A stretch of 64,000 bases of DNA from Ferrovibrio sp. MS7 (GTDB taxonomy: Bacteria > Pseudomonadota > Alphaproteobacteria > Ferrovibrionales > Ferrovibrionaceae). This document shows, piece after piece, positions 12,399-28,946 of the stretch (position 1 is its first letter; the number at the start of each line of letters is the position of its first letter). Both the position numbers and the translations under genes were made by a program. The stretch lies in assembly GCF_038404985.1 (NCBI RefSeq), contig NZ_JBBKBA010000004.1, forward strand, positions 186,001 to 250,000, given 5' to 3'. The notes under the pieces were generated by a model. That model saw only the letters and a program-made list of their open reading frames with translations, did no database searches and had not been told where the DNA came from.

Positions 12399-12877
12399 TG
12401 ATCCTCGCCGCGCTGCTCATTGGCATCCCCGGCGCCCTCTTCATCGTGATGCAAATCAACGCCGCCCATCGCCGCCAGGTCATGGCCTATGAGTGGAACT
12501 CGGCCGAAGTGATCCGGCGCGGGCAACGCCTGGACCAGCTCGAAAAGCTGACCAAGGACGCGCAGAAGAAGATCGCGGAGCTGACCAAGGAGAATTTCGA
12601 GCTGCGCGCCCAGGTCGCCAAGCTGGAACGCCTGGCCACCGCCGCGATCCAGGCCCCCGCCCCCGACGACAAGACCTTCAGCGTCGCGGTGTTCAACCAG
12701 GAAGTCCGCCGTGCCCATATGATGGGCCAGAAGCACCGCAACCTCGACGATAAATGGGCCGAGATCAATTACGAGGACGTGAGCGCCGCCAACGAGGACG
12801 CGGTGCGCAAGAAGATGCTGCGCAAATATCCGCCGGAGCGCGGCTTCGTGATCGAGAGCGTTACGCTGAAACGCTGA
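12383..12877 (+). CDS. Conserved membrane-anchored coiled-coil protein, function unknown
   Basis: This 164-residue protein has one N-terminal transmembrane helix (about residues 4-24), then a charged coiled coil (about 45-90, rich in Glu, Lys and Leu heptads), then a small C-terminal domain ending K-Y-P-P-E-R-G-F-V-I-E-S-V. I do not recognise the family. The topology suggests a cytoplasmic coiled coil tethered to the inner membrane. The ATG at 12383 begins right at the hydrophobic helix; the frame extends to a TTG at 12329, but those residues look non-coding. Its last 17 bases overlap the last bases of the convergent gene at 12861. Confidence 0.7.
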   Translation: MTEFWLILAALLIGIPGALFIVMQINAAHRRQVMAYEWNSAEVIRRGQRLDQLEKLTKDAQKKIAELTKENFELRAQVAKLERLATAAIQAPAPDDKTFSVAVFNQEVRRAHMMGQKHRNLDDKWAEINYEDVSAANEDAVRKKMLRKYPPERGFVIESVTLKR

Positions 12878-13658
12878 GATCGCTGCTGGCGAAGACGCGC
12901 AATTCCAACGCGGCCTGATTATCGATCTCGCCGAGCGGTGCCAGGTTCCAGCCCCATTCCTTCTCCGCCACCGGCGGCGTGATGTCGAACAAAGCCGATT
13001 CCGACATCACCACCTCGCCGGCACGATTGCGGAAGATGCGGCGCTGCTCGCTGACCAGACCGACCCGGCAATCGAGTTGCCGCAAGCCGGCGAGATGTGC
13101 CGCAACAATGCGGCGGCCATAAGCCTGGCGGGTGGCGAAGGACTGCCCTGCCCGCTCCAGCTTCTCCAGCGGCAGCAACGGCAGTTGCGATAGCAGATTG
13201 AGCGACAGTACCAGACCCGGCTTGTCCGCATCCAAACCCAGCAGCGCAGCAGGCTGCGGCTCGGGCAGCGGCTTGCCTACGCGCCATTCAAGCATCATGG
13301 GCGCCAGGCCGGAAACATCGAACAGCCGCGCCTCGACATTGGGATAGCGCTTCAGCCGCCAGAGCTGCATCGGCAGCCAGGCGATATCGGCCAGCAGCAC
13401 GCGGTCGAATTTCGCAGCCAAGGCGGCGAGCGGCAGGTCGTCCAGCAGCCCGGCGCCGAGCACCCAGGCGGTGCCGCCCTGTGGTTGGCCTGCCAGCAGG
13501 CTTTCGACGAAGGCGCGGGTTTCGGCATGATGCGGCGCCCAGGCCTTGGCGCAGCGGCGCGAGCGCGACCACAGGCCAACCTGGGCGCGGCCATAGCCCA
13601 GCCGCCGCGCCGCCGGCTCGCAGCGCACCAGACTATTGAGCAGCAATTCCGCCAGCAT
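12861..13658 (-). CDS. Putative SAM-dependent methyltransferase-like protein
   Basis: This 265-residue soluble protein shows a Rossmann-type nucleotide-binding pattern: V-L-G-A-G-L-L-D-D near residue 67, then an acidic residue after a beta strand in L-L-A-D-I. That pattern suggests an S-adenosylmethionine methyltransferase fold, but no specific family motif is recognised. It starts 3 bases after the hydantoinase B stop and is therefore the last gene of the long catabolic operon, though it may have no role in that pathway. Its 3' end overlaps the convergent coiled-coil gene by 17 bases. Confidence 0.6.
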   Translation of the reverse strand: MLAELLLNSLVRCEPAARRLGYGRAQVGLWSRSRRCAKAWAPHHAETRAFVESLLAGQPQGGTAWVLGAGLLDDLPLAALAAKFDRVLLADIAWLPMQLWRLKRYPNVEARLFDVSGLAPMMLEWRVGKPLPEPQPAALLGLDADKPGLVLSLNLLSQLPLLPLEKLERAGQSFATRQAYGRRIVAAHLAGLRQLDCRVGLVSEQRRIFRNRAGEVVMSESALFDITPPVAEKEWGWNLAPLGEIDNQAALELRVFASSDLSVSA

Positions 13659-13661
13659 GGC

Positions 13662-15347
13662 TTATTCGGCAGCGGCCCGCCGCCCGAACCGCGCCACGGC
13701 CTGCTCGCGCGTGTAATAGCCGCGCGCGATATCGCGCTCGATGGCAGCGGCATCGCGGGCGGCCGGATCGCCATAGCCGCCGCCACCTGGCGTGGAGACA
13801 CGCACGCGGTCGCCGACCTTGATGGCGATATCCTGATCCTTGGAAAGATGCGGCGGCACATATTTGCCGCTGTTGTCGCGCTCGATCAACACGGTGTTGA
13901 GGCCGCCATCCTCGCCGCCCAGCACGCCACGCGGCCCCGTCCGGCCATGGTCCATCACCATCGATGCCCGCGCCTCGCCGCGCCGCAGCCGGATGGTGTA
14001 ATTGACGCCGAAGCCACCACGATACTTGCCGGCACCGCCCGAGCCTTCATGCAGCGAGTATTCCTCGAACAGCACCGGGTAATACTGCTCCATCACCTCG
14101 ATCGGCGTGGTCTTGGAAATGCCGATGGTGGAACAGCCGTTGCTGATGCCATCACCGCCATGCCAGCCGCCATAGCCGCCGCCGGAAATCACATACATGA
14201 CATAGGAACGATTGCGCGCCGGATCGAAACCGCCGAGCGCGAGATTGCCGGATGTGCCGGCGGGAGCCGCGAACAGCTTATCCGGCATCGCCTGCACCAG
14301 CGCATTGAACACCGCCTCCGCGATGCGCTGGCTGACTTCCGCCGCGCAGCCCGAAACCGGGCGCGGATACTTGGCATAGAGGAAGGTGCCTTCCGGATCC
14401 TTGATCTTCAGCGGCTCGAAGGTGCCGGCATTGATCGGCACATCGGGGAAGATATGCTTCACCGCCAGATAGACCGACGACTTGGTGGTGGCCAGCACCG
14501 AATTCATCGGCCCCTTGCAGGGCGGGCTGGACCCGGTCATGTCGAAGTGCAGTTCGTCGCCCTGCTTGGTCACGGCCATCTCGATATGCAGCGGCTCGTC
14601 CACCACGCCATCGGAATCAACCACCGCCGAACCGCGATAGACGCCATCGGGAATGGCGCGGATGCGGGCGCGCATCTGCTGCGAGGCGCGCGCCTTCAAT
14701 TCGGTAATCGCCGCTTCCACCGTGTCGGCGCCATAGCGGTCGAGCAAAGCGGTCAGCCGTTTTTCGCCAATCGAGAGGGCCGCGGCCTGGGCCTTGATGT
14801 CGCCGATGCGCTGATCGGCGATGCGGATATTGCTGAGGATGATGGACAGGATTTCCTCATCCAGCACACCCTGCTTGTAGAGCTTCACCGGCGGCAGCCG
14901 CAGTCCTTCCTGCTCCACTTCGGTGGCATTGGCCGAGAAGCCGCCCGGCACCATGCCGCCGGTATCCGGCCAATGGCCGGTATTGGCCAGCCAGGAAAAC
15001 AGCTTGCCACGATAGAAGAACGGCTTGACGAATTTCACATCCATCAGATGCGTGCCGCCGAGATACGGATCGTTGACGATATAGATATCGCCAGGCTGCG
15101 GGCTGCGCGCCCGCTCGATCACGGCTTGCGTCGAGAATTGCATGGTGCCGACGAAAACCGGCAGGCCGAGATCGCCCTGGGCAATCAGTTCGCCAGTATC
15201 GCGGTGATAGATGCCATCGGAACGGTCCAGCGCTTCCGAGATCACCGGCGAGAAGGCCGCGCGGCAGAAGGCCAGATCCATCTCGTTGCAGACCTGCTGC
15301 AAGCCGTTCTGGATCACGACAAGAGTTACGGGATCGAGCTTTGTCAT
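13662..15347 (-). CDS. hyuB: Hydantoinase/oxoprolinase family, subunit B
   Basis: This is the B subunit (561 residues) of an ATP-dependent amidohydrolase of the hydantoinase / 5-oxoprolinase / acetone-carboxylase superfamily. Characteristic stretches are A-F-S-P-V-I-S-E-A-L-D near the start, N-D-P-Y-x-G-G-T-H-L-x-D, and the late G-G-x-G-x-Y-R-G-G-x-G. The A subunit starts just upstream and shares an ATGA overlap with this gene. The pair opens a cyclic amide (lactam, hydantoin or oxoproline) using ATP. In this operon the substrate would be the reduced heterocyclic ring; that is inference. The frame continues upstream of 15347, but the homologous region begins at M-T-K-L-D-P. Confidence 0.92.
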   Translation of the reverse strand: MTKLDPVTLVVIQNGLQQVCNEMDLAFCRAAFSPVISEALDRSDGIYHRDTGELIAQGDLGLPVFVGTMQFSTQAVIERARSPQPGDIYIVNDPYLGGTHLMDVKFVKPFFYRGKLFSWLANTGHWPDTGGMVPGGFSANATEVEQEGLRLPPVKLYKQGVLDEEILSIILSNIRIADQRIGDIKAQAAALSIGEKRLTALLDRYGADTVEAAITELKARASQQMRARIRAIPDGVYRGSAVVDSDGVVDEPLHIEMAVTKQGDELHFDMTGSSPPCKGPMNSVLATTKSSVYLAVKHIFPDVPINAGTFEPLKIKDPEGTFLYAKYPRPVSGCAAEVSQRIAEAVFNALVQAMPDKLFAAPAGTSGNLALGGFDPARNRSYVMYVISGGGYGGWHGGDGISNGCSTIGISKTTPIEVMEQYYPVLFEEYSLHEGSGGAGKYRGGFGVNYTIRLRRGEARASMVMDHGRTGPRGVLGGEDGGLNTVLIERDNSGKYVPPHLSKDQDIAIKVGDRVRVSTPGGGGYGDPAARDAAAIERDIARGYYTREQAVARFGRRAAAE

Positions 15348-17380
15348 GGCGTCACCGAAACGATCAGATTGCCGAGAGCATCGACATGCACGCTGTTGCC
15401 AGGATCGATCACCACCGTGGTGTCGAGTTGTTCGCAAATTGCCGGGCCGGCGAAAGTCACCCCGCGCGGCAGGCGTTCGCGGTCATAGACCGGCGTATCC
15501 TGCCAGCCGCCGGCATCATACCACACCTTGCGCATGCCCTTGCGGGCACCGGCAACATCGGCGGCGGGCGCTGCCGCCAGCAGGCGATCCAGCGTCAATT
15601 GCGGGCGGCGGCCGATCACGGCGGTATGCAGGTTCACCAGTTGGGCGCGGATTTCTGGCAGTTCGACCTCGAAACGCTGCCAATAGGCGGCCTCGAACGC
15701 GGCCTGCAATTCCGCCGGGGTGATATCAAGGCTCGGCACTGGCACGGTGAGCAGATGGCTCTGGCCCTGGAACTGCATGTCGGCGGTATGCAGCACCTGG
15801 ATTTCCTCCACCGCCACGCCGTCGCGGGCGATGGTGTCGCGGCCTTCCTGGATCTGCTGCTGCAACACGGTTTTCACCAAGCCCGGATCCAGGGCGGCAA
15901 CCGGCCGGTTCACCGTGCGCACATAATCATGGCGCAGATCGGCGACGACGCAGCCCAGCGCATTGGTGATGCCCGGCCGCGCCGGGATCAGCAGTTTCGG
16001 GATGCCGAGTTCGAGCGCCAGGGCTGCAGCATGCAACGGCCCGGCGCCACCGAAGGCAAACAGCGCGAAGTCGCGCGGATCATGGCCACGGCTCAAAGAT
16101 ACCATGCGGATGGCATTGGCCATCTTGTCGTTGGCGATGCGCAACACCGCCGCCGCCGCTCCCTCTGCGTCGAGCCCCAGCGGCTTGCCCAAGCCAGCCA
16201 TGGCGGCGCGCACGTCATCCAGCGAGACTTTGTTATCGACCGAGAGCAGGCCATCGGGATTGAGCCGGCCGAGCACCAGGTTGGCATCGGTGATGGTGGG
16301 CCGCGTGCCGCCACGCCCGTAGCAGATCGGCCCGGGCCGCGCGCCGGCACTTTCCGGGCCGACCTGCAACATGCCGGCCTCGTTGATGAAGGCGAGCGAG
16401 CCGCCACCGGCGCCGATGGTATGCACATCCACCATCGGCACATGGATCGGCATGGCATATTCGAGTTCAAGCTCGGAGGAGACCTGCGGAACGCCATCCT
16501 GAATCAAACCGACATCCGACGAGGTGCCGCCCATATCGTAGGTGATGACATTCGGCAGCCCGGCGGCGCGCGCCGTGTAGGCAGCGGCCATGACACCGGA
16601 AGCCGGCCCGGACATCACGGTATTCACGGCGGCCTCGGCGACAATGCTGGCGGCGATGGTACCGCCATTGCCCTGCATCACCAGCAGATCGCGCCCGAAG
16701 CCGCGATTTTTCAGTTCGCCATCCAGGCGCTGCATGTAGCGATGCAGCACCGGCTGCACGCTGGCATTGACGCAGGCGGTGGTGCCGCGCTCATACTCGC
16801 GGTATTCGGAGAGCAATTCATGGCCGGCGGTGACATAGCCGTTCGGCCACTCTTCGGCGGCGATTTCCAGCGCGCGCTTCTCGTGACTCTGGTTGATGTA
16901 GCTGTGCAGGAAATGGATCACCAGGGCTTCGCAACCGGCGTCTTTCAAGGTGACTACGGCGGCGCGGAACGCGGCTTCATCCAGCGGCACCACGACATTG
17001 CCATCGGCATCCATGCGTTCGGGCACTTCCAGGCGCCACTGGCGCGGCACCAGAGGCTCGAAACTGCCGGTGAGGCCATAGGGCGTCGGGCGCGTGCGGC
17101 GGCCCAATTCCAGGCTGTCGCGGAAGCCTTGCGTGGTGATCAGGCCAACCTTCGCCACCTTGCGCTCGAGCAGCGCATTGGTGGTGGTGGTGGTGCCATG
17201 GACGATGGTGGCGGTATCGGCCAGCGCGATGCCGGCCTTGTCCAATGCTGCCAGCACGCCGAAGGCCTGGTTCTCTACCGTGGTCGGCACTTTCGCCAGC
17301 GACACCAGGCCGCGCTCCGGCTCAATGCCGATCAGGTCGGTGAAGGTGCCGCCCACATCGATGCCGACGGTCCAGGCCAT
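15344..17380 (-). CDS. hyuA: Hydantoinase/oxoprolinase family, subunit A
   Basis: This is the A subunit (678 residues) of the ATP-dependent cyclic-amide hydrolase. It opens with G-I-D-V-G-G-T-F-T-D, the phosphate-binding loop of the actin/hexokinase-like ATPase fold, followed by V-H-G-T-T-T-T-T-N-A-L-L-E. It has T-Y-D-M-G-G-T-S-S-D-V and the late F-G-G-A-G-P-L-H-A. All are standard for functional HyuA proteins, which activate the amide carbonyl by phosphorylation. It begins 26 bases downstream of livF and overlaps hyuB by 4 bases, so transporter and enzyme appear co-transcribed. Confidence 0.93.
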   Translation of the reverse strand: MAWTVGIDVGGTFTDLIGIEPERGLVSLAKVPTTVENQAFGVLAALDKAGIALADTATIVHGTTTTTNALLERKVAKVGLITTQGFRDSLELGRRTRPTPYGLTGSFEPLVPRQWRLEVPERMDADGNVVVPLDEAAFRAAVVTLKDAGCEALVIHFLHSYINQSHEKRALEIAAEEWPNGYVTAGHELLSEYREYERGTTACVNASVQPVLHRYMQRLDGELKNRGFGRDLLVMQGNGGTIAASIVAEAAVNTVMSGPASGVMAAAYTARAAGLPNVITYDMGGTSSDVGLIQDGVPQVSSELELEYAMPIHVPMVDVHTIGAGGGSLAFINEAGMLQVGPESAGARPGPICYGRGGTRPTITDANLVLGRLNPDGLLSVDNKVSLDDVRAAMAGLGKPLGLDAEGAAAAVLRIANDKMANAIRMVSLSRGHDPRDFALFAFGGAGPLHAAALALELGIPKLLIPARPGITNALGCVVADLRHDYVRTVNRPVAALDPGLVKTVLQQQIQEGRDTIARDGVAVEEIQVLHTADMQFQGQSHLLTVPVPSLDITPAELQAAFEAAYWQRFEVELPEIRAQLVNLHTAVIGRRPQLTLDRLLAAAPAADVAGARKGMRKVWYDAGGWQDTPVYDRERLPRGVTFAGPAICEQLDTTVVIDPGNSVHVDALGNLIVSVTP

Positions 17381-17406
17381 GCCGCTACTCCTCAGACGGA
17401 AAGAAA

Positions 17407-18108
17407 CTAGACGGAAAGATACTGTTCGCGCACGGCGGCATCCTGCGAGAGTGCCGCCATGGTACCCTGGTAGCGGATGCGGCCCTTCTCGATGATATAG
17501 GCGCGATCCGCCACCAACTGGGCGAAATGCAGGTTCTGTTCAGACAGCAGCACCGTGAGGCCCTCGGCCTTGAGCTGCAGGATGGTCTTGGCCATCTGCT
17601 CGACGATCACCGGCGCCAGGCCTTCGGAGGGTTCATCCAGCAGGATCAGGCGTGGATTGCCCATCAGCGTGCGCGCAATGGTGAGCATCTGCTGCTCGCC
17701 ACCCGACATGCGGCCGCCCGGGCGGTCCTTCATGCGGCCGAGATTGGGGAAGAGTTCAAACAGCCGCTCCGGCGTCCAGGTCGGTGTATCGCTGCGCGGC
17801 GCCTGGCGGCCGATATCGAGGTTCTCCATCACGGTGAGATCCGTGAAGATGCGGCGCTCCTCGGGCACATAGCCCAAGCCCAGTTGCGCGATGCGGTGCG
17901 GCGGCAGATGGTCGATGCGCTTGCCCTCGAAACTGATCTCGCCGCTTTGCGCCGCCACCAGGCCGATCACCGATTTCATCGTGGTGGATTTGCCCGCACC
18001 ATTGCGGCCCAGCAGCACCACCACTTCGCCGCGCTGCGCCTCCAGCGCCAGATCGGCCAGGATATGCGCCCGGCCGTAGAAGGTGTTCAGCCCGCTCACG
18101 CTCAGCAT
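17407..18108 (-). CDS. livF: Branched-chain-type ABC transporter ATP-binding protein LivF
   Basis: This ATPase of 233 residues belongs to the LivF class. Walker A GRNGAGKST lies near residue 35, the signature is M-S-G-G-E-Q-Q-M, and Walker B is L-I-L-L-D-E-P-S-E-G-L-A, a LivF hallmark. The start is coupled to livG: TGATG shares one base. It energises uptake with LivG through the fused LivHM membrane protein. Because it is flanked by hydantoinase and heterocycle genes, the cargo is probably the pathway substrate, not leucine. Confidence 0.93.
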   Translation of the reverse strand: MLSVSGLNTFYGRAHILADLALEAQRGEVVVLLGRNGAGKSTTMKSVIGLVAAQSGEISFEGKRIDHLPPHRIAQLGLGYVPEERRIFTDLTVMENLDIGRQAPRSDTPTWTPERLFELFPNLGRMKDRPGGRMSGGEQQMLTIARTLMGNPRLILLDEPSEGLAPVIVEQMAKTILQLKAEGLTVLLSEQNLHFAQLVADRAYIIEKGRIRYQGTMAALSQDAAVREQYLSV

Positions 18109-18869
18109 CAGTGGGCCTCCGCGAATGTGGCGCCGGAGCCGAGATAGACCGCCTGCACTTCCGGGTTGGCACGTACTTCCGCCGGGCTGCCCTCGGCGAT
18201 CAGCTTGCCGCGGTTGAGCACGATGATGCGGTCGGCCTGGGCGAACACCACGTCCATGTCATGCTCGGTGAACAGCACGGCGATGCCATCCTTGCGCGCA
18301 ACACGGGCGGTGAGATCCATCAGCGCCAGGCGCTCGTTCGGCGCCATGCCGGCCGTCGGTTCGTCCATCAGCAGCAAGGTCGGCTGATTGGCGAGCGCCA
18401 CAGCCAGTTCGACGCGCTTCAGGTCGCCATAGGCCAGGATGCCGCAGGGCCGTTCGGCCTGGTCGGTCATGCCGACGCGGTCGAGCAAGGCCATCGCTTC
18501 GTCGCGGTAGAGCGCATTGGCCGGCCGCCACAGGCTCATCAGCCGCTTGTTGAACGACAGCAGCGCCATCTGCACATTCTCGCGCACGGTCATGGAATTG
18601 AACGTGGCGGTGATCTGGAAGGTGCGGCCAACGCCCAGCCGCCAGATATCGCGCGGCGCCATGCCGATCAGGCTCTGGCCATGCAGCTTCACCTCGCCGC
18701 TATCGGGCTTGAGCTGGCCATTCAGCATGTTGAAGCAGGTGCTTTTGCCGGCACCATTGGGGCCGATCAGTGCCAGCAATTCGCCAGCGGCGACGTCGAA
18801 GCGCACATCCTGCACCGCCTGCACGCCGCCGAACGATTTATGCAGGCCAAGAACCGTGAGCACCGTCAT
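18108..18869 (-). CDS. livG: Branched-chain-type ABC transporter ATP-binding protein LivG
   Basis: This ATPase has 253 residues and is of the LivG class. Walker A GPNGAGKST lies near residue 36, the family's longer helical insert follows, and Walker B is L-L-L-M-D-E-P-T-A-G-M. Its signature is weakened: the usual L-S-G-G-Q region reads I-L-A-Y-G-D-L-K-R, a form common in LivG. The ATG at 18869 overlaps the livHM stop (ATGA). The frame is open upstream into livHM, but that is a shadow. Confidence 0.92.
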   Translation of the reverse strand: MTVLTVLGLHKSFGGVQAVQDVRFDVAAGELLALIGPNGAGKSTCFNMLNGQLKPDSGEVKLHGQSLIGMAPRDIWRLGVGRTFQITATFNSMTVRENVQMALLSFNKRLMSLWRPANALYRDEAMALLDRVGMTDQAERPCGILAYGDLKRVELAVALANQPTLLLMDEPTAGMAPNERLALMDLTARVARKDGIAVLFTEHDMDVVFAQADRIIVLNRGKLIAEGSPAEVRANPEVQAVYLGSGATFAEAH

Positions 18870-20761
18870 GGCACGGCCTCCGCCTGGGGCTTGAGCCTTG
18901 CGGCAGCCAGTTTCAGGAAGCCGGCAATGCCCATCGGGAAGGCCAGCACGATCACCAGGATGGTGAGGCCGAGAATGGCCCGCCAGTATTCCGTATTGCG
19001 CGCGATGGTATCCTGCAGCCAGGTGAACACCGCCGCCCCCGCCACCGGACCGGTAAGCGTCTGCACGCCGCCGAGCAGCACCATGACGAGGCCATCCACC
19101 GAGCGCGGCACCGCGAGAGTCTCGGGCGAGATCGAGCCCTTGGAGAAGGCGAACAGCCCGCCGGCCAGGCCGGCGAAAATACCGGCCAGTACGAAGCCGA
19201 ACCATTGGAAGCGGCGGACGTCAATACCGATGGCATCGGCGCGCAGCGGCGAGTCACGCCCGGCCCGCAGCGCATAGCCGAAGGGCGCATGCACCACGCG
19301 CCACAGGAACAGAATACCAGCGATGCAGAGCGTGAGCGCGAAAGCGTAGAACAAGGTCTTGTTCTTCAGCCAGTCGGATGGCCACAGCCCGATCAGGCCG
19401 TTGGAGCCGCCGGTGAAGGCATCCCACTGATAGACCACCGACCAGGCGATCTGGGCGAAGGCCAGGGTCAGCATCGCCAGATAGACGCCGGACAGCCGCA
19501 CGCAGAACCAGCCGAACACCAGCGCACCGAGGCCGCCAGCCAGCGGCCCGGCGAACAAGGCCACTTCCATCGGCAGTTTCAGTTTCAGGAAAGCCAAAGC
19601 CGCGCCATAGCAGCCGAGGCCGAAATACGCGGCATGGCCGAAACTCACCATGCCGGCCGGGCCCATGAGGAAATGCAGCGTGACGGCGAACAGCGCGAAG
19701 ACCGCGATATCGATCAGCAGCACCAGCAGGTAGCCATCGCCCTTGAGCGGCAGCAGGCCGAGCAGCACGACGCAGCCAAGCACGGCGAGCCAGAAGGTCT
19801 GGTTCAGCGGATAGAGCGGCGGCTCGACCATGAAGGCGCCGCGTTGCGCGCCCTGCTGCTTGCCGAGCAGGCCCCAGGGCCGCACCACCAGCACGATGGC
19901 CATGATGACGAATTCCACCACCAGGGTGAACTTGCTGAACGAAAAGACGGTGCCGAAGATGGTGACATCGCCAATCCCAATGCAGAAGGCCTTGGCCTGG
20001 GCAATGAGAAGCGCCGCCAGGAAGGCGCCGCCGATCGAGCCCATGCCGCCGACCACGACGACGACGAAGGCATCCGAGATCACGCTGATATCCAGCATGA
20101 GCTGTGCCGGCTCGCGGGGGAGCTGCAACGCGCCGCCTAGGCCGGCGAGGAAGGCACCGAGGAAGAACACGCCGGTGAACAGGCCGCTCTGGTTGACGCC
20201 GAGCGCGCCGACCATCTCGCGGTCCTGGGTGGCAGCGCGCACCAAGCGGCCCCAGCGCGTGCGGTTCATCAGCAGCCACAGCAGGCCCAGCACCACCGGG
20301 CCGATGATGATAAGGAACAGGTCATATTCCGGGAAACGCTTGCCCATGATCTGGACCGCGCCGCGCAGGCCGGCGGCACGCGGGCCGACCAGATCCTCGG
20401 CGCCCCAGATATAGAGCGCGGCGTCCTTGATCACGAGCACCAGCGCGAAAGTGGCAAGCAACTGGAACAGTTCGGGCGCGCGGTAGATGCGGCGCAGCAC
20501 CAGTACCTCGATCACCACGCCGATCAGGCCGACGCCGATGGCAGCCGCCACCACGCCGCCCCAGAAGCCGAACAACGTCGAGCGGCCGAGATACTCCACG
20601 AATGTGTAGGCGAGATAGACGCCCAGCATGTAGAGCGAGCCATGGGCGAAATTCACGATCCGGCTGACGCCGAAGATGATCGACAGGCCGGCGGCGACCA
20701 GGAACAGCGACGAGGCGCCGGCAAGGCCATTCATGAACTGGATGACGATATTGGCGAGCAA
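18866..20761 (-). CDS. livHM: Fused LivH-LivM ABC transporter permease
   Basis: This 631-residue integral membrane protein joins both permease subunits in one chain. Residues 1 to about 295 are LivH-like (G-L-S-I-I-F-G-V-S-R-I-V-N-F-A-H-G, and the loop G-G-M-G-S-I-G-G-A-F). A short linker follows, then LivM-like residues from about 310 to the end (F-G-H-A-A-Y-F-G-L-G, G-G-V-Q-T-L-T-G-P-V). Each half has about eight to ten hydrophobic segments and one cytoplasmic coupling loop. There is no stop or frameshift at the junction, so the fusion is real. It overlaps livG by 4 bases. An 86-base spacer with a strong hairpin separates it from the binding-protein gene. Confidence 0.93.
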   Translation of the reverse strand: MLANIVIQFMNGLAGASSLFLVAAGLSIIFGVSRIVNFAHGSLYMLGVYLAYTFVEYLGRSTLFGFWGGVVAAAIGVGLIGVVIEVLVLRRIYRAPELFQLLATFALVLVIKDAALYIWGAEDLVGPRAAGLRGAVQIMGKRFPEYDLFLIIIGPVVLGLLWLLMNRTRWGRLVRAATQDREMVGALGVNQSGLFTGVFFLGAFLAGLGGALQLPREPAQLMLDISVISDAFVVVVVGGMGSIGGAFLAALLIAQAKAFCIGIGDVTIFGTVFSFSKFTLVVEFVIMAIVLVVRPWGLLGKQQGAQRGAFMVEPPLYPLNQTFWLAVLGCVVLLGLLPLKGDGYLLVLLIDIAVFALFAVTLHFLMGPAGMVSFGHAAYFGLGCYGAALAFLKLKLPMEVALFAGPLAGGLGALVFGWFCVRLSGVYLAMLTLAFAQIAWSVVYQWDAFTGGSNGLIGLWPSDWLKNKTLFYAFALTLCIAGILFLWRVVHAPFGYALRAGRDSPLRADAIGIDVRRFQWFGFVLAGIFAGLAGGLFAFSKGSISPETLAVPRSVDGLVMVLLGGVQTLTGPVAGAAVFTWLQDTIARNTEYWRAILGLTILVIVLAFPMGIAGFLKLAAARLKPQAEAVP

Positions 20762-20798
20762 GGCCGCTTTCCGGTCTGGCTAGAGAGGTGGGAGATCC

Positions 20799-20824
20799 CC
20801 CGCCCCGGATCGCGCCGGGGCGGG
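20799..20824 (-). terminator. GC-rich hairpin between binding protein and permease genes
   Basis: CCCGCCCCGG (20799-20808) and CCGGGGCGGG (20815-20824) form a perfect 10-base stem with a 6-base loop. No T-run follows on the minus strand, so it is not a classical intrinsic terminator. At this position it more likely stabilises the upstream binding-protein mRNA or partly attenuates downstream genes. Confidence 0.6.
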
Positions 20825-20847
20825 AGACAGCATAAGCAGCAGTTTAC

Positions 20848-22056: not shown

Positions 22057-22115
22057 GTGTTTTTCTCCTTGGTTGATACGCGTGTGGGGTTGACGTTCGT
22101 GTAACGGAAGAAACG

Positions 22116-22715
22116 CTAACGCAAGCCGTCCTCGCCCTTGATCTCATGCGCCTGCAGGCCACCAACACGGTGATGCAGGCGTGGCCCGGTGGCCATGGCG
22201 ATGACGTAAACCAGTTCATTGGCGCGCGGCGCATCCGGCACGCGCAGTTCGAAGGCATCGAAATGGCTGCGCACATAGGCGGCGTTGACGTGGTGCAGCG
22301 GCACGTCGATGCTGGCGCCCATGCCGCCGACCTTGGTGACGCTGGGCACGATGGCCTTGGTATCGCCGCCATTCGGGCCGCCGAGCGCGCCGCGCATGCC
22401 ATAGCCGCCCGGCACATGCCACAGCGCGCCATGCTCCATCTCGCCGGCTTCGCCGATGATGCTGCCCTTGCCGTAGGATTCGATCCGCTTCGGATCGCCG
22501 CCCAGCACATTGATCAAGCGCTGCGACATTTCCAGGCCGAGCGGCTTCAATTCATCCATGAACGGCATGATGTCTGGCTCATAGCGACCAGCAAAGGGGT
22601 TGCGCAGCACAACAGCAATGCCGGCACGCAGCAGCGGCTTCTCCGGGCGCGGTCCGCCTTCATGGAAGGCTTCCTCAACACTCAGGTAAAACTTACGCAC
22701 ATCCACGCGACTCAT
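22116..22715 (-). CDS. AA_synth family protein (PF06684, DUF1185)
   Basis: This 199-residue soluble protein belongs to the family labelled amino acid synthesis. Recognisable stretches are R-K-F-Y-L-S-V-E-E near the start, N-P-F-A-G-R-Y, the Gly-rich G-K-G-S-I-I-G-E-A-G-E-x-E-H-G-A, and H-H-V-N-A-A-Y-V-R-S-H. The family's known structures show a variant of the Bacillus chorismate mutase fold, and no reaction is established. Ring-opening amidases of the AtzD/barbiturase group are built from a similar fold, so a lactam-related role is possible here. Its ATG overlaps the UPF0280 stop by 4 bases; a 59-base gap precedes the binding-protein gene. Confidence 0.85.
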   Translation of the reverse strand: MSRVDVRKFYLSVEEAFHEGGPRPEKPLLRAGIAVVLRNPFAGRYEPDIMPFMDELKPLGLEMSQRLINVLGGDPKRIESYGKGSIIGEAGEMEHGALWHVPGGYGMRGALGGPNGGDTKAIVPSVTKVGGMGASIDVPLHHVNAAYVRSHFDAFELRVPDAPRANELVYVIAMATGPRLHHRVGGLQAHEIKGEDGLR

Positions 22716-23587
22716 GCCACACCCCCTGCCCTATCGACCAGCATTGCCTCTCCGCCCACCACGTGGGTTTCGCCTTGCAGCGAAAGATAGGCCGCCTGGA
22801 CCAGGCCCTTGCGTTTCAGATCATGCGCCACCGCGGCGCCGGACGACAAGGCTTCAAGTACCAGTGCAATCGGCAGCGTACTTACATTCTCGGTGACCAG
22901 CAGATCGCCGAGATCGGAATCCGGTTGCAAATCGGATGCCACGCGCCGCGTGATTGCCGGATGCTCAGCATTCACCGCATTGGCGATGACAGTGGCGGCG
23001 GCATCGGCTTCCGACGCGCTGCGGGCCAGCACTGTCACCGCATCGGCGATGCCACGCGAGAAGGAGCGGCCGCGCCAGCCCGAGGTGGCAATGCCACGAC
23101 AAGGCGTGCTGGCGCGGATTTCAGCACGCGCATCGATATGCGGCTGATCGACATTGCCCACCACGCCGGCAGTGAAGCTCTCATTGCCTTCCAGCAGCAA
23201 AGCAATATCGCCACCATTATTCACATAAGCCTTGCGCAAACCGGGTGCGGCGGCCATGACGGCGATGATCTCTTCCGCTACCGAGCCGGCCACCGCCGCC
23301 ATCGGCGTGATGAACATGCTACGATGCGGCCAGCAGGCAGCGGCCATGCGCCGCGCCACCCTGCCGCGCAGCAACGGATGCGCGTCGCCCAGCGGCTGGC
23401 GCAGCAGCGGCAATTCCGCCACCAGCTCATCCAGGATGGTCTGGAAGCGCGCCCAGGCATTGGTATAGGCGGCCTGCTCGGCATCGGCTGTGCCGAACGC
23501 CTCGATCACCAGATCGATCGGGCCATGCTGCAGATGCAGGCGCCTGCCCTGCCCGGATTGCAGCCATGCCGCCTGCGGTCCGGTCAT
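22712..23587 (-). CDS. UPF0280 family protein (ApbE-like fold)
   Basis: This 291-residue cytoplasmic protein matches UPF0280, a family related in fold to the flavin transferase ApbE but without a proven activity. Visible family features are the mid-protein V-A-G-S-V-A-E-E-I, Y-V-N-N-G-G-D-I-A, the G-I-A-T-S-G-W-R-G-R-S-F-S-R-G-I-A-D-A-V-T-V-L block, and A-N-A-V-N. It overlaps the reductase-like gene upstream and the AA_synth gene downstream by 4 bases each, so the three are tightly co-translated. A role in flavin attachment or in ring processing is possible; neither is shown. Confidence 0.85.
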   Translation of the reverse strand: MTGPQAAWLQSGQGRRLHLQHGPIDLVIEAFGTADAEQAAYTNAWARFQTILDELVAELPLLRQPLGDAHPLLRGRVARRMAAACWPHRSMFITPMAAVAGSVAEEIIAVMAAAPGLRKAYVNNGGDIALLLEGNESFTAGVVGNVDQPHIDARAEIRASTPCRGIATSGWRGRSFSRGIADAVTVLARSASEADAAATVIANAVNAEHPAITRRVASDLQPDSDLGDLLVTENVSTLPIALVLEALSSGAAVAHDLKRKGLVQAAYLSLQGETHVVGGEAMLVDRAGGVA

Positions 23588-25035
23588 GTAGTGCCGCCTT
23601 GATTAAGGCGGGTCAGGCGCGGCTCGCGCAGCACGTCCTCCAACCGCACCACATGATCCATATGACCACCGAGGGCCGCGTAATCCTCGCGCGTCATGGT
23701 GAACTCAATCGGCGCGACCAGGGCCGGCGTTGGCACATAGCCGAAGGAATTATCCGGCATCGCCAGCACATCCACCATGTAGGTGATGCCACCGCCGGGC
23801 CAGACAAAAACCGGTGCGCCGCCGGAGGTGACGCGGGTGAGCCGGTCCTTCACGCTGATGGTCAACCGCACCGGATTCTCGGTGACGCCGGCACGCAAGG
23901 AACCGCCGGCACCAGCCATGAACAGCACGGTGCAGAGCGACGGCTCGCAATTCTCCGCGATACGCTCCACCACCTTGGTGATCGGCGCCGGCATCTCGGC
24001 CGGCTGCGGCTTCAACTGCTCGTCCAGTACATACCAGGCGCTATGTTCGCCGGTGGTGGAAACCATCAGCAGCTTCATGCCCGGCCAGGCGGTCTTGGCG
24101 TCGATGCTTTCGATGATCTCCAGCGGATCGGAGACATTGGTGCCGCCCCAGCCCAGGCCCGGTTCAGCGACCTGGAAATAGCGGCCCGGCGTGGATTTGC
24201 GGCCCCGCACACGGATGCCGGCGGGGCGCATGTCGAGGAAACGGCCGGCCTGATGTTCGGTCAGCACGCCGGTGATGTGGTCGTCGACCACGATCACCTC
24301 ATCGGCATGGCCATGCCATTGCTTGGCGAAAATCCCGATAGTGGCCGAACCGCAGCCAACCCGCATGCGCTGCTCCGGCGTGCCGTTGACAATCGGCGCA
24401 TGGCCGGCCTGCAGCACCACTTCCGAGCCGCCATCAATGGTTACCGTCACCGCCTGCTTGTTGGCAAGCTTCAGCATCGCATCGCAGGTGGTGGTGCCTT
24501 CCTTCTTGCTGCCGCCGGTGAGGTGATGCACGCCGCCCAACGAAAGCATCTGCGAGCCGTATTCCATGGTGGTGACATGGCCGATGGCCTCGCCATTCAC
24601 CCGCACCGCCGCCTGCTCCGGCCCGAGATAGCGGTCGGTGTCGATTTTCACCTTGAGGCCGCAATAGCTGAAGATGCCTTCCGTCACCACCGTCACCATA
24701 TCGACGCCCTGGTGTTCGGAGGCAACGATGAAGGGCGCCGGCTTGTAATCGGGATAGGTGGTGCCGGCGCCGATGCCGGTGACAAAGGCAGGCAATGGTG
24801 CCGGTGCCATCATCTGGCCGTCCCAGGCTTCGCTGCCGGCGAGGAATGGCACCACGTTGCGGCCCGCGCTTGCCGCCTGCTCGGTCACCACCAGCGGATC
24901 GACGCGGGTCAGCACGCCCTCCACATTGGCATAGCGGTCGCAGGCGCCGGTCTTGCCGATACGGATGCGGCACAGCACCGGACAGGCATCGCAGCGGACA
25001 AGGTCCGAGCCCTTCGGCGTGGCGAGTTCGTTCAT
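23584..25035 (-). CDS. hnr: 6-hydroxynicotinate reductase-like iron-sulfur protein
   Basis: This 483-residue protein resembles proteins annotated as 6-hydroxynicotinate reductase, the enzyme of Eubacterium barkeri that reduces 6-hydroxynicotinate to 1,4,5,6-tetrahydro-6-oxonicotinate with reduced ferredoxin. An N-terminal cluster C-x2-C-x3-C-x9-C (Cys15, 18, 22, 32) could bind an Fe-S cluster. The body is rich in Gly and Asp motifs with no other family I recognise. It is sandwiched, with 4-base overlaps, between the molybdenum hydroxylase and UPF0280. This context fits a hydroxylate-then-reduce route. The assignment rests on remembered family resemblance, and a different heterocycle may be the true substrate. 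Confidence 0.72.
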   Translation of the reverse strand: MNELATPKGSDLVRCDACPVLCRIRIGKTGACDRYANVEGVLTRVDPLVVTEQAASAGRNVVPFLAGSEAWDGQMMAPAPLPAFVTGIGAGTTYPDYKPAPFIVASEHQGVDMVTVVTEGIFSYCGLKVKIDTDRYLGPEQAAVRVNGEAIGHVTTMEYGSQMLSLGGVHHLTGGSKKEGTTTCDAMLKLANKQAVTVTIDGGSEVVLQAGHAPIVNGTPEQRMRVGCGSATIGIFAKQWHGHADEVIVVDDHITGVLTEHQAGRFLDMRPAGIRVRGRKSTPGRYFQVAEPGLGWGGTNVSDPLEIIESIDAKTAWPGMKLLMVSTTGEHSAWYVLDEQLKPQPAEMPAPITKVVERIAENCEPSLCTVLFMAGAGGSLRAGVTENPVRLTISVKDRLTRVTSGGAPVFVWPGGGITYMVDVLAMPDNSFGYVPTPALVAPIEFTMTREDYAALGGHMDHVVRLEDVLREPRLTRLNQGGTT

Positions 25036-27758
25036 TCCGCCGCCTCCTTCTGCCTGGTCAGGGCGCGCAGCCGGTGCGGCAGCAGCGGCACCTGGGTGAC
25101 GCGCACGCCCACCGCATCGCGCACCGCGCCGAGAATGGCCGGCGCGGTCGGCACCAGGCCAGGTTCGCCGACACCCTTGGCGCCATAGGGGCCAAGCGGC
25201 TCGGCATCCTCGATCAGCAGCACCTCGATCTGCGGCATGTCGCCGACCGTGGGGATGAGATAATCGTGCAAATTCTCGCTGCGGCCGGGGATATATTCCT
25301 CCATCAGCGCCAGGCCCAAGCCTTGCGCGATGCCGCCGTGGATCTGGCCTTCCACCTGCTGCGGGTTGATGGCGCGGCCGACATCATGCGCCGCCACCAT
25401 GCGCAGCACCTTCACCTTGCCGAGTTCGGGATCGACCTCGACCAGCGCGATCTGCGCCGCGAAGGCATAGGTGGCATAGGGAATACCCTGGCCATTGGCA
25501 TCCAGCGGCGTGGTCGGCGGATCGAAACGGCCCTCACCCAGCAGCACATCTTCGCCGGCAACACGCGGCAACGTATCCAGCGCCACGCGGTGCGTGGTGC
25601 CGCCATCCTCGATCAGGAGTTTGCTGCCCTCGAAGCGGAACACGGCCTTCTCGCCGGCATTGACCAGGCGCAGGATCTGGCTGCGCAGGTCGAGGCCGGC
25701 ATATTCCGCCGCCTTGCCGGAAACGAAGGTCTGGCGCGAGGCCGAGGTCTTGCCGGCATCGGCGGTGCGGTCGGTATCGCCGGTGATGAGGTCGAACAGC
25801 GCCATCGGCGCCCCCACCGCATCGGCGGTGATCTGCGTCATGATGGTGTTGGAGCCCTGGCCGACATCGAGCGCACCGTTATAGAGCGTGAAGCGGCCAT
25901 CGGCGCGCAACGCCACGCGCATAATGGAGGGATTCGACATCGAGGTGTTGCCGATACCGTACCACATGCAGCCGATGCCGACGCCGCGCTTCAGCCCCTT
26001 GCGCCGGGCGTTGAACCGTTGCACCTCGTCCTGCATCGCGCGCCAATGCGGCGCCAATGCATCGAGGCAGGCCGGCAAGCCGGCGGAATGTTCCAGCACC
26101 TGGCCGGTGGCCGTGGCCTGGCCGGCGCGCAAGGCATTGCGGCGGCGGATTTCCAGGCGGTCGATGCCGAGTTTTTCGGCCAGATCATCCAGCAACGCCT
26201 CATGCGCGATGGCAGCCTGCGGCACGCCGAAGCCTCGGAAGGCGCCCGATGGCGGCGCGTTGGTGAAAAAGGCGCGGCCCCAGTTATGCACATGCGGCAC
26301 ATGATACGGCCCGGTGGCATGCACCGGCACGCGGTTCGCCACCGTGGGGCCCCAGCTCGCATAGGCGCCGGTATCGAAATCGGCCTTGGTTTCCACCGCG
26401 ACCAGAACCCCGTCCTTGTCGCAGCCGAATTTCGCTGTAATCGTCGCCGGGTGGCGCTTGGTGGAAGCCGCCATGCTCTCGGGTCGCGTATAGACGCAAG
26501 CCACCGGACGTTCCAGCAGCCAGGCGGCCAGCGCGATCAACGGCTGCACCGAAAGATCGAGCTTGCCGCCGAAGCCGCCGCCGCAGGCAGTCGGCACCAC
26601 GCGGATCGCATCCAGCGGCATTTTCATCACGCCGGCAATCTCGTCACGGTCCATGTAGGGCGTCTGCGTCGTGGCATGCACCTCGATGCGGTTGCCGACG
26701 CGCCGCGCCCAGCCGGCTTCCGGCTCGATATAGGCATGCTCGACAAAGGCGGTCTGGAACACATCGCTGGCAACGGCTGCGCAAGACGCGAAGCCGGCGG
26801 CGATATCACCCTTGATCACGCCGCCCTGCAGCAGCAGGTTGCCGGGCTTTTCCGCCTGCACCAGTTTGGCGCCCGTGGCGCTGGCAACCTTCACGCCATG
26901 CAACGGTTCTTCCACGGCATAGGTCAGCGGCAGCTCGGCCTCGCGCACTGCTTCGACCGCCGCGCGGCTACCGACCAGCGCGATTACCGCCTCGCCGCGA
27001 TAGCGCACCAGGCCATCGGCCAGCACCGGCTGGTCCTTGATATCGGGATAGATGCCATAGCCGTTGCGCGGCACATCGGCGGCGGTGAGCACGCGCACCA
27101 GGCCTGCGTATTTTTGCAGCAGCGGCGCGGTATCGCCGAGCTTGAAAGTGGCGCGGTGATGCGGGCTGCGGATGATGCGCAGCCAGAGCGCATCATCCGG
27201 AATCGAATCTGCGCCGTATTTCTCAGCGCCATCCACCTTAGCCTGGCCATCCACCTTGACGCTGCGGGCCCCCACGGCCTTGCCGGCCTCGGGTGCCACG
27301 GGCAGCGGCTGGTGCCGCGCGGCATCCAGCACGGCTTCGACGATCTTCTGGTAGCCGGTGCAGCGGCAGAGCACGCCGCCCAGCGCATCCTGCACGTCCT
27401 CGCGGCTGGGGCGGCCATTGCCGGCCAGCAGGTCTGTGGCGGCCAGCAGCATGCCGGGCGTGCAGATGCCGCATTGCGCGGCACCATGGCGCAGGAAGGA
27501 TTGCTGCAGGCGGGAGAGTGCACCATGCGCCTTGAGGCCTTCCACCGTGATCACCAGCTTGCCTTCGGCCTGGGCTGCCGGCGTGAGGCAGGCGCAAACC
27601 TGCTTGCCATCCAGCATCACGGTGCAGGCGCCGCAATCGCCGGCATTGCAGCCGATCTTGGTGCCGGTGAGGCCGAAATCATCGCGCAGCACATCGGCCA
27701 GTCGCTTCACCGGCGAACCGGTATAGTCCTTGGCGGTTCCGTTCACGACCAGGCGCAT
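25032..27758 (-). CDS. Molybdenum hydroxylase, fused 2Fe-2S and Mo-binding subunits (xanthine dehydrogenase family)
   Basis: This 908-residue chain carries two functions of a xanthine-oxidase-family enzyme. Residues 1-80 hold the plant-type 2Fe-2S domain (Cys37, 42, 45, 57). Residues 85-150 hold the second 2Fe-2S domain (Cys96, 99 in C-G-I-C-T-P-G and Cys131, 133 in C-R-C-T-G-Y). The molybdopterin part runs from about 170 to the end with G-G-G-F-G-G-K, G-A-F-R-G-F-G and the catalytic Glu865 in G-V-G-E-P-G. The missing FAD domain is supplied by the next upstream gene. Such enzymes hydroxylate N-heteroaromatics next to the ring nitrogen using water. The true start is the ATG at 27758, where the ferredoxin domain begins. 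No XdhC-like chaperone is in the window. Confidence 0.92.
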   Translation of the reverse strand: MRLVVNGTAKDYTGSPVKRLADVLRDDFGLTGTKIGCNAGDCGACTVMLDGKQVCACLTPAAQAEGKLVITVEGLKAHGALSRLQQSFLRHGAAQCGICTPGMLLAATDLLAGNGRPSREDVQDALGGVLCRCTGYQKIVEAVLDAARHQPLPVAPEAGKAVGARSVKVDGQAKVDGAEKYGADSIPDDALWLRIIRSPHHRATFKLGDTAPLLQKYAGLVRVLTAADVPRNGYGIYPDIKDQPVLADGLVRYRGEAVIALVGSRAAVEAVREAELPLTYAVEEPLHGVKVASATGAKLVQAEKPGNLLLQGGVIKGDIAAGFASCAAVASDVFQTAFVEHAYIEPEAGWARRVGNRIEVHATTQTPYMDRDEIAGVMKMPLDAIRVVPTACGGGFGGKLDLSVQPLIALAAWLLERPVACVYTRPESMAASTKRHPATITAKFGCDKDGVLVAVETKADFDTGAYASWGPTVANRVPVHATGPYHVPHVHNWGRAFFTNAPPSGAFRGFGVPQAAIAHEALLDDLAEKLGIDRLEIRRRNALRAGQATATGQVLEHSAGLPACLDALAPHWRAMQDEVQRFNARRKGLKRGVGIGCMWYGIGNTSMSNPSIMRVALRADGRFTLYNGALDVGQGSNTIMTQITADAVGAPMALFDLITGDTDRTADAGKTSASRQTFVSGKAAEYAGLDLRSQILRLVNAGEKAVFRFEGSKLLIEDGGTTHRVALDTLPRVAGEDVLLGEGRFDPPTTPLDANGQGIPYATYAFAAQIALVEVDPELGKVKVLRMVAAHDVGRAINPQQVEGQIHGGIAQGLGLALMEEYIPGRSENLHDYLIPTVGDMPQIEVLLIEDAEPLGPYGAKGVGEPGLVPTAPAILGAVRDAVGVRVTQVPLLPHRLRALTRQKEAAE

Positions 27759-27762
27759 TGCG

Positions 27763-28629
27763 TCACCCCTGCTGCTTGGCCAGCGCGGCAAGCGCGCGGC
27801 GGGTGATGGTGAGGGCCGCCTCGCGGCGATAGGCGGCGTCGGCGCGCAGATCGTCGATCGGGCTGAGTTGCTCGAAATATTTTGGCTTCGCCTTATGCGC
27901 CAGGCCGGCATTGATGCGGCGGCCGATCAGTTCGGCCTCCAGATAGGTGAGCCGCTGCGCCACCGCCGAGCAGGCACCGACCGCCACCGAGGCACCATGC
28001 ACGATGCCGGCGGATTCCTCGATCACCACGCCGACCATGGCAATCGAGATCACCAGATATTTGCGCGCGCCGAGCTTCATGAAGATGCTGCGCGTCGGGT
28101 TCTTCGATTTCGGAATCAGGATCGCGGTGAGCAATTCGCCCGGTTCCAGCCGGGTCTGGCGGTTGCCGGCGATGAAATCGCCCAAGGCCAGTTCGCGCAG
28201 CCGGCCACGGCGCTGCAATTCCACCCGCGCCCGCATCGCCAGCAGCATCGGCACGCCATCGGCGGCCGGCGAGGCATTGCAGAGATTGCCGGCGATGGTG
28301 CCGGCATTCTGGATCTGGGTGCCGCCAATCTCGCGCGCTGCCTGGCGCAGGCCGTCGAATAGCGGCGGCAGGCTGGCCTCGGCAATGTCGCTCCAGGTGG
28401 TGGTGGCGCCGAGCCGCCAGTAGTCGGGCAATTCCTGGATGCCACGCAATTCGGGGATGGCGGTGATGTCGATGAGGTCGTCGTCCAGCGCACGGCCGAC
28501 CCGGGCCGGGTAATAATCCGTGCCGCCGGCCAGAATCAGCGGCGCCTGGATCACCGACGACTGGCCAGCGGTGGCGCCAAGAAGCTCCAGCGCCTCGCTC
28601 AGGCTCGCAGGACGTGCATACGACGCCAT
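27763..28629 (-). CDS. FAD-binding subunit of molybdenum hydroxylase
   Basis: This 288-residue protein is a CoxM/CutM-type FAD subunit. It begins Y-x-R-P-A-S-L-S-E-A-L, has the L-A-G-G-T-D-Y-Y-P flavin loop, and the N-A-G-T-I-A-G-N-L-C-N-A-S-P-A-A-D motif that contacts FAD. It passes electrons from the Mo and 2Fe-2S chain to NAD(P) or another acceptor. It is the first gene of the catabolic operon, 4 bases ahead of the fused Fe-S/Mo subunit. The ATG at 28629 matches the family start; the frame is open upstream to 28675 and further, but without a convincing ribosome site. Confidence 0.9.
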   Translation of the reverse strand: MASYARPASLSEALELLGATAGQSSVIQAPLILAGGTDYYPARVGRALDDDLIDITAIPELRGIQELPDYWRLGATTTWSDIAEASLPPLFDGLRQAAREIGGTQIQNAGTIAGNLCNASPAADGVPMLLAMRARVELQRRGRLRELALGDFIAGNRQTRLEPGELLTAILIPKSKNPTRSIFMKLGARKYLVISIAMVGVVIEESAGIVHGASVAVGACSAVAQRLTYLEAELIGRRINAGLAHKAKPKYFEQLSPIDDLRADAAYRREAALTITRRALAALAKQQG

Positions 28630-28666
28630 TCCGATTGGGACCCCCACCCGCTCGTGAACCTCATTT

Positions 28667-28678
28667 GTGTACATATGA
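28667..28678. promoter_or_regulatory. Candidate operator GTGTACATATGA, copy 1 (operon side)
   Basis: This exact 12-base sequence recurs at 28884-28895. The present copy lies 38-49 bases before the FAD-subunit start codon and overlaps the weak -10 candidate of the operon. Confidence 0.45.
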
Positions 28679-28883
28679 TGCTGCCGTGTGATTTCAAAAA
28701 AAGCAACGTCAAAAAAGCGGCAGTTGTGGCTCAAAGCCTGGGCAGGTCGAAAACCGCGTGTCCGGCAATCAACACTATTAAAATGCATTAATTGGGTATT
28801 GCTTAAATCTTAGTGGACAATATGTTTGCCCCCGATGCGTACCCCAGATATTTGCGCTGGACGGTCGGGCTGGATAATTGTAA

Positions 28884-28895: not shown

Positions 28896-28946
28896 ATTTG
28901 GTCCCTGCCATTCCCTGCGCCTCTCCCGGATCGTGAAGCCAGAACC

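Follow-up and report, generated by a model that had tools for sequence, protein, structure and literature searches.

A probable nicotinate operon of Ferrovibrio in which a hydantoinase-type enzyme most likely stands in for enamidase, with a candidate role for UPF0280

Fermentation of nicotinate by Eubacterium barkeri, reportedly set out by Alhapel in 2006, includes a 6-hydroxynicotinate reductase (Hnr) that carries a covalent flavin and whose 6-hydroxynicotinate-reducing activity is established; the downstream steps in E. barkeri differ from those of the route proposed here. In this organism 1,4,5,6-tetrahydro-6-oxonicotinate (THON) is converted to 2-formylglutarate by a bifunctional enamidase (as cited in PMC9304392). 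For Azorhizobium and Bradyrhizobiaceae, a 2012 paper (PMC3511419) describes a nicotinate cluster with a hydroxylase, Hnr, a transporter and two conserved unknown proteins, leading by way of THON to glutarate; Bradyrhizobiaceae strain SG-6C degrades both nicotinate and 6-hydroxynicotinate, and its Hnr is 42% identical to that of E. barkeri. Neither 'hydantoinase' nor 'enamidase' occurs in the text of that paper (0 occurrences each). Here we analyse a stretch of 64,000 nucleotides from Ferrovibrio sp. MS7 (contig NZ_JBBKBA010000004.1, positions 186,001 to 250,000; hereafter the window), whose source genome comprises 4.58 Mb in five contigs. Twelve minus-strand genes running from 28629 down to 12861 encode a molybdenum (Mo) hydroxylase with a flavin adenine dinucleotide (FAD) subunit and a fused iron-sulfur (FeS)/Mo subunit, Hnr, the proteins UPF0280 and AA_synth, a Liv-type transporter, the two subunits HyuA and HyuB of a hydantoinase/oxoprolinase-type enzyme (HyuAB), and a last protein. 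With good probability, we consider, this operon serves nicotinate breakdown by the THON type of route known from Azorhizobium and E. barkeri, with HyuAB as its ring opener. An earlier, sequence-only reading of the window had proposed an undescribed route for breakdown of an N-heterocycle. The first part is too strong because the same core, and the route from THON to glutarate, are published as a nicotinate cluster of Azorhizobium and Bradyrhizobiaceae (PMC3511419), and the second is right in kind but too broad, nicotinate being the most likely substrate. The pathway is thus largely known in outline, and what the window adds is a variant of the ring-opening step, strongly supported by the comparison of genomes, together with a candidate role for UPF0280.

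The assignment of HyuAB to ring opening depends on a comparison of 385 genomes drawn evenly from the class of the window's genome, 68 of which have Hnr. Enamidase was called at E<=1e-100 (matches of 66-77% identity) and HyuA orthologs at 800 bits or more, a threshold picked after a gap between 832 and 796 bits had been seen and whose set a tree later showed to be a clade. On these terms enamidase is found in 30 of the 385 genomes, 29 of them with Hnr, and HyuA in 41, 37 of them with Hnr. The 68 Hnr genomes divide into 29 with enamidase only, 37 with HyuA only, 0 with both and 2 with neither (70% and 86% complete, family codes f122 and f125), giving a Fisher p of 3e-17 when genomes are treated as independent. 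Sorted by family code (33 in all), the genomes show only enamidase in 14 families and only HyuA in 15, and two families (f35 and f104) include both kinds in separate genomes. A similar division is seen among the 82 loci from L033 to L116 with a full Hnr, the flanks of which contain enamidase in 15 cases, HyuA in 31, both in 0 and neither in 36. The window's genome has no enamidase-like protein even at E<=1e-15, and the same lax search finds nothing in 34 of the 37 HyuA genomes. Nine further genomes from other loci were searched for enamidase, with four matches at 72-86% identity, one genome with two at 41%, and four with none. The amidohydrolase family was searched with the protein of plasmid locus L035, which aligns over its full length with E. 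barkeri enamidase (2vun) at 376 bits, 183 of 380 aligned residues being identical.

On the HyuA tree, of which only the clade structure is used and in which outer paralogs draw long-branch warnings, the ortholog set forms one branch with support of 100 (64 of 89 rows), and the paralogs below 800 bits fall outside it; the branch includes four sequences from Hnr-free genomes of family f114 and a second copy in G184. Since HyuA paralogs of other kinds (607-634 bits) are present in six enamidase genomes, the exclusion applies to this clade and not to HyuA-like proteins in general. The window's genome itself has a second HyuA (G000:C1:1645143-1647173, locus L211), 47% identical, in a separate clade that is also found in enamidase genomes. 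The HyuA ortholog is kept even where it lies far from Hnr, at distances of 42-77 kb in G379, G105, G236 and G135 and of 1.2 Mb in G380, and HyuB adjoins HyuA in each of the 7 HyuA loci that were read in Hnr genomes (L190-L194, L200 and L203). When the opener is used as a label, it changes 13 times on the Hnr tree (112 proteins, 110 labelled), at least 7 of these on well-supported branches, and 5 times on the Mo-subunit tree (54 labelled rows), at least 4 on well-supported branches. These trees come from quick IQ-TREE searches without bootstrap, and those of Hnr exclude L123 (G028, Hnr in two frames), L153 (G231, partial) and the 36 of 82 loci whose flanks lack both openers. As for any inherited trait, the labels are clustered, yet they do not form two clades on either tree, and enamidase and HyuAB seem to have been swapped several times in evolution. 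Family f104 (L201, L202 and L203) provides an example at close range, in which an orthologous Mo gene, 69% identical, adjoins HyuBA in G104 and enamidase in G378 and G300.

The chemistry of related enzymes is consistent with this assignment. In the caprolactamase CapAB one subunit activates the lactam with ATP and the other hydrolyses it at a metal site, bicarbonate being required (PMC8453981). Asp8 and Asp282 of HyuA (54 frames) and Asp41, His100, Asp103 and His125 of HyuB (35 frames) are each conserved in more than 97%, and can be matched by eye to the ATP-site and metal-site residues named in the same paper; solved relatives of HyuA are 7hk5 and 6yra. We propose that the Liv-type transporter would import nicotinate, that the FAD and FeS/Mo enzyme, from its constant place beside Hnr, would hydroxylate C6 to give 6-hydroxynicotinate, and that Hnr, by family assignment, would reduce the ring to THON. 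HyuA would then activate THON at the cost of ATP and the activated lactim would move to the metal site of HyuB, where hydrolysis would yield aminomethylene-glutarate and from it 2-formylglutarate and ammonia; the position of this step is taken from the exclusion with enamidase, and its mechanism is carried over from CapAB. As THON is a six-membered lactam such a reaction is chemically sensible, and HyuAB is most likely the ATP-dependent opener of the THON ring. The route would continue to glutarate, as reported for Azorhizobium, and UPF0280, to judge from its co-occurrence and fold, would attach or insert the covalent flavin of Hnr. Hydroxylation next to the ring nitrogen, reduction to a lactam and ATP-driven opening had already been put forward in the sequence-only reading, and the comparative evidence is consistent with all three; that reading was also right that the ring-opening enzyme is unlike that of E. 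barkeri.

Hnr matches 26 plasmid records at 63-73% identity, 17 of which (63-68%) are annotated as 6-hydroxynicotinate reductase. At E 0.001 neither Pfam nor NCBIfam gives a match to it (sub-cut-off Pfam matches appear only at E 10), nor do solved structures at E<=1, and its predicted model, of moderate confidence (predicted local distance difference test, pLDDT, 78.4), gives zero Foldseek matches at E<=0.001. The window's Hnr is 95% identical to that of Ferrovibrio locus L037. Proteins 72% identical to it are present in L090, from a record titled Solirubrobacterales, and in L093 (Mesoflavibacter), although these titles are possibly wrong. A comparison across genomes had been suggested in the sequence-only reading, and in it the operon is seen to be conserved: of the 68 Hnr genomes, 65 have a match to the Mo subunit (E<=1e-180), alongside either ring opener, and 67 have UPF0280. 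AA_synth, which scores 224 bits (cut-off 27) and has the solved relatives 3byq (1.2e-56) and 2qtp, belongs to a family present in 59 of the 68, often in two copies; every one of the 29 enamidase genomes has it, against 29 of 37 HyuA genomes (Fisher p 0.007, the genomes not being independent). Among its relatives is TgnF, which belongs to trigonelline breakdown. Another is HcdD, of 7-hydroxycoumarin breakdown, and TgnF is said to stimulate an aldehyde oxidation whereas no such effect was seen for HcdD (PMC7913881).

UPF0280 is identified by NCBIfam model NF003322 (380 bits, cut-off 290), which is titled 'hypothetical protein', the name UPF0280 being taken from annotated relatives. At E<=1e-25 the protein is present in 67 of the 68 Hnr genomes and in 0 of the 317 other genomes of the class. 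The sole Hnr genome without a match, G064, is 68% complete, and its Hnr contig ends in an apparent UPF0280 start. Of 67 class loci, 64 have a UPF0280 frame next to Hnr, and in the other three (L134, L153 and L164) the contig ends just past Hnr; in L061 and L090 UPF0280 is not near Hnr but elsewhere in the genome, and all nine genomes so checked have it. By its distribution UPF0280 is a near-obligate partner of Hnr in this class, in which no other partner for it is recognised. The predicted model (pLDDT 95.9) has 36 Foldseek matches at E<=0.001, of which 2 are to 2o34, a member of the same family, and 34 to ApbE, Ftp or FmnB chains, with query TM-scores of 0.33-0.53. With a second aligner (VIA) the ApbE entries give Z of 14.4-16.7 and root-mean-square deviations of 2.9-3.7 over 205-222 aligned residues, the next fold reaching Z 8.1, so that the modelled protein has the ApbE flavin-transferase fold by a wide margin; it also keeps the TSG and AD motifs of ApbE.

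A number of observations count against HyuAB as the THON opener of a nicotinate operon. The independent-pairs sign test has 4 supported pairs, in the expected direction in nearly every pairing, and gives p 0.125, significance being unreachable. Three of the 37 HyuA genomes (G064, G104 and G289) hold a divergent enamidase-like protein of 37-40% identity, G082 has enamidase without Hnr, and the HyuA search of the class scored at most 3 places per genome, by which a HyuA in an enamidase genome could have been missed. HyuA and HyuB score 538 and 338 bits against the caprolactamase alpha and beta equivalogs, each with a cut-off of 1000, so the substrate is not readable from that family. Among solved structures nicotinate dehydrogenase is not the closest to the Mo subunit, since 3hrd, the E. 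barkeri enzyme, scores 262 and 224 bits and the aldehyde oxidoreductase 1dgj 387, and the link of the Hnr family to E. barkeri runs via annotation and the published SG-6C identity. NicB exceeds 600 bits in five of the L033-L116 loci and in one class locus, with HyuAB also present only in Neorhizobium L034, where annotated nicAB, hnr and hyuAB lie together within 20 kb. The HyuA clade also occurs in four Hnr-free genomes (f114), and the three that were read have a different Mo gene beside HyuA, so the clade is not strictly tied to THON. These three loci (L186-L188, in G114, G217 and G383) contain HyuA, HyuB and the other Mo gene without Hnr, and L188 continues with genes for a BKACE protein (PF05853) and a Rieske oxygenase (PF00355/PF00848); the f114 clusters possibly serve a different lactam pathway. 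It could be, then, that this type of HyuAB serves another pyridine, such as a hydroxypyridine-carboxylate or a pyridone, and that the exclusion reflects substrate choice by lineage instead of a swap at a single step, to which the f114 clusters, the solitary L034 and the lack of a substrate-specific match for the Mo subunit would all lend themselves. We think this unlikely, as matches to the same Mo hydroxylase and the same Hnr accompany both openers, the trees do not fall into two clades, and the openers of f104 adjoin orthologous Mo genes. Even less probable, to the point where we give it little credence, is that HyuAB comes into play only once the ring is open, or on a side product, with AA_synth or another protein as the ring opener. 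The AA_synth gene does sit between UPF0280 and the transporter, and its relative HcdD is encoded by one of four genes with which an E. coli host reduced and hydrolysed a coumarin lactone (PMC7913881). AA_synth as the opener is argued against by its absence from 8 of 37 HyuA genomes and 0 of 29 enamidase genomes, the reverse of the pattern for an enamidase substitute, and it is HyuA, not AA_synth, that is complementary to enamidase. HyuAB as the opener of THON remains the reading we prefer.

For UPF0280 the balance is different. Although UPF0280 may install the covalent flavin of Hnr, two features speak against this: the loop with the catalytic His257 of ApbE, which precedes the AD motif, is a gap in the UPF0280 profile alignment, and none of the 148 rows of Hnr (143 distinct frames, as some contig and class loci duplicate one gene) has the canonical flavinylation motif D-x-x-[S/T]-G-A-[S/T]. 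The nearest motif in Hnr is D252-[HQ]-I-T-[GA]-V-x-[T/S]259, with residue 259 being Thr in 76 of 149 rows, some of them repeated, and Ser in the other 73. UPF0280 might instead serve Hnr as a structural subunit or handle a cofactor for it in another way, an explanation that concerns this protein only and that we take seriously, at somewhat less than an even chance. The missing His257 loop is in keeping with it, and so are the thin profile support (hhalign probability 27%, E 7e-4) and a Pfam ApbE score of 18.2 bits, under the gathering cut-off of 25.6. Furthermore, the NF003322 model reaches remote members, below its cut-off, in two methanogen control genomes, from which it follows that not every family member can serve Hnr. 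A role other than flavin transfer is harder to reconcile with the wide margin of the ApbE-like fold and the retained TSG and AD motifs, and with the fact that a canonical ApbE was not found in the window's genome while the Hnr of E. barkeri carries a covalent flavin. The most far-reaching combination, in which HyuAB has repeatedly and completely displaced enamidase and UPF0280 is a new, His-less flavin transferase of ApbE fold that flavinylates Hnr, possibly at Thr/Ser259, is one that we put forward tentatively and regard as rather doubtful as a whole.

The layout of the operon (Table 1) agrees in most respects with the sequence-only reading. Its twelve minus-strand genes are upheld by frame reading, all frames being open and coding-like, and the read gene starts reproduce six junctions that overlap by 1-4 bases (five of 4 bases and LivG/LivF of 1 base) and just two gaps of more than 50 bases, namely 59 from AA_synth to the binding-protein gene and 86 between the latter and LivHM; the other gaps are of 3, 4 and 26 bases. 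Matches over Pfam cut-offs are FAD_binding_5/CO_deh_flav_C, Fer2/Fer2_2/MoCoBD_1/MoCoBD_2, AA_synth, Peripla_BP_6, BPD_transp_2, Hydantoinase_A and Hydantoinase_B. The gene order and families given earlier hold for FAD, Mo, Hnr, UPF0280, AA_synth, Liv and HyuAB, but the label of methyltransferase-like for the last gene is unsupported and rejected, because this gene has zero Pfam matches even at E 10. Among the 68 class loci the last gene is seen in that of the window only, and apart from these in L200 of G295, of the same genus, where it lies beside HyuB; many of the compared stretches stop short of its position, so that its absence there is weak evidence, and it is probably outside the conserved module. 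The LivH and LivM permeases form a single fused frame of 631 residues; one LivHM frame of at least 600 bits is seen in 62 of 153 compared loci, and in some loci LivH and LivM are separate frames. A tRNA-His (GTG) lies past the downstream end of the operon at 12161-12237.

Table 1. Operon genes and upstream neighbours in the window
Feature	Coordinates	Strand	Basis
FAD subunit of Mo hydroxylase	27763..28629	-	PF00941 and PF03450 over cut-off; alternative ATG 28674
Fused 2Fe-2S/molybdopterin subunit, probable nicotinate 6-hydroxylase	25032..27758	-	Pfam; recurrence beside Hnr
Hnr, 6-hydroxynicotinate reductase family	23584..25035	-	N-terminal CxxCx3Cx9C; annotated plasmid relatives
UPF0280, ApbE-fold, candidate flavin transferase	22712..23587	-	NF003322; co-occurrence with Hnr; fold
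AA_synth (PF06684)	22116..22715	-	Pfam; PDB 3byq
Periplasmic binding protein, Liv-type transporter	20848..22056	-	PF13458
Fused LivH-LivM permease	18866..20761	-	BPD_transp_2 in two stretches; UrtB-/UrtC-like halves, below NCBIfam cut-off
LivG-type ATPase	18108..18869	-	Frame and start; best L033 matches annotated ABC transporter ATP-binding protein
LivF-type ATPase	17407..18108	-	Frame and start; best L033 matches annotated ABC transporter ATP-binding protein
HyuA, ATP-binding subunit (ATP-dependent lactamase), proposed to activate THON	15344..17380	-	PF05378, PF01968, PF19278
HyuB, metal-dependent hydrolytic subunit	13662..15347	-	PF02538
Last gene, 265 aa, without family match	12861..13658	-	Pfam and NCBIfam scans
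Ferredoxin-NADP reductase-like	28947..29780	+ (divergent)	PF00970 and PF00175
MarR regulator	29886..30392	-	PF12802 and PF01047

Just upstream of the operon are two genes that were overlooked in the sequence-only reading and that are seen again close to Hnr elsewhere, a divergent ferredoxin-NADP reductase-like gene and a MarR gene. The former scores 155 bits against NF008178, under its cut-off of 390, and at 250 bits or more it is found in 13 of 153 compared loci, including Ferrovibrio loci L037 and L038; it is possible that its product takes part in the electron donor chain for Hnr. As a core member it is rejected, since only 2 of 68 class loci carry one within the stretch read, a count that omits the window's own copy, which falls outside L184. 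A MarR-like gene is in the flank of 38 of the 68 class Hnr loci, and a search of 28600-28960 for a MarR operator turned up no inverted repeat of at least 7. In 12 of the 68 class loci (e.g. L147, L150 and L169) the stretch around Hnr contains a gene resembling the alpha subunit of a ring-hydroxylating dioxygenase.

In the literature searched, which leaves subscription journals largely outside, we find neither HyuAB as a substitute for enamidase nor HyuAB in connection with nicotinate, and no function given for UPF0280. If our assignment holds, the swap would be a clear case in which an enzyme class gives way to an unrelated one at one step of a pathway. It would also provide a likely function for HyuAB in 37 of the 68 alphaproteobacterial Hnr genomes sampled, or about half; without it, opening of the THON ring would be a hole in genomes that lack enamidase. 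UPF0280, a family without known function, would be tied to one target enzyme, and Hnr expressed for study may need it.

Among the closest described systems is the cluster of Azorhizobium and SG-6C, which shares with the window Hnr, an ABC transporter, a hydroxylase and two conserved proteins without known function. Loci L113 and L116 of Bradyrhizobium contain a NicBA-like hydroxylase, Hnr, UPF0280, AA_synth, Liv, MarR, an enamidase-like amidohydrolase and a reductase, from which we infer that the two unknown proteins of the published cluster are UPF0280 and AA_synth. These loci differ from the window in having the NicBA-like hydroxylase and enamidase where the window has the FAD and FeS/Mo hydroxylase and HyuAB. 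With the fermentation in E. barkeri the proposed route has in common hydroxylation, reduction by Hnr to THON and ring opening toward 2-formylglutarate, but the E. barkeri enamidase is an amidohydrolase that works without ATP, whereas the window has the ATP-dependent HyuAB type, and the nicotinate dehydrogenase of that organism (3hrd) has its Mo part divided between a large and a medium subunit where the window has a fused 2Fe-2S/Mo subunit. HyuAB resembles CapAB and other ATP-dependent lactamases in its two-subunit architecture, the Asp residues of the ATP site and the Asp-His-Asp-His metal site (PMC8453981); the substrate of CapAB is caprolactam, and that proposed for the window's HyuAB is an unsaturated six-membered lactam carboxylate. 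UPF0280, finally, is like the flavin transferases ApbE, Ftp and FmnB in its fold and its TSG and AD motifs, and unlike them in lacking the loop of His257, the catalytic residue of ApbE (review PMC12052999), in a Pfam score below cut-off and in a proposed target without the canonical motif.

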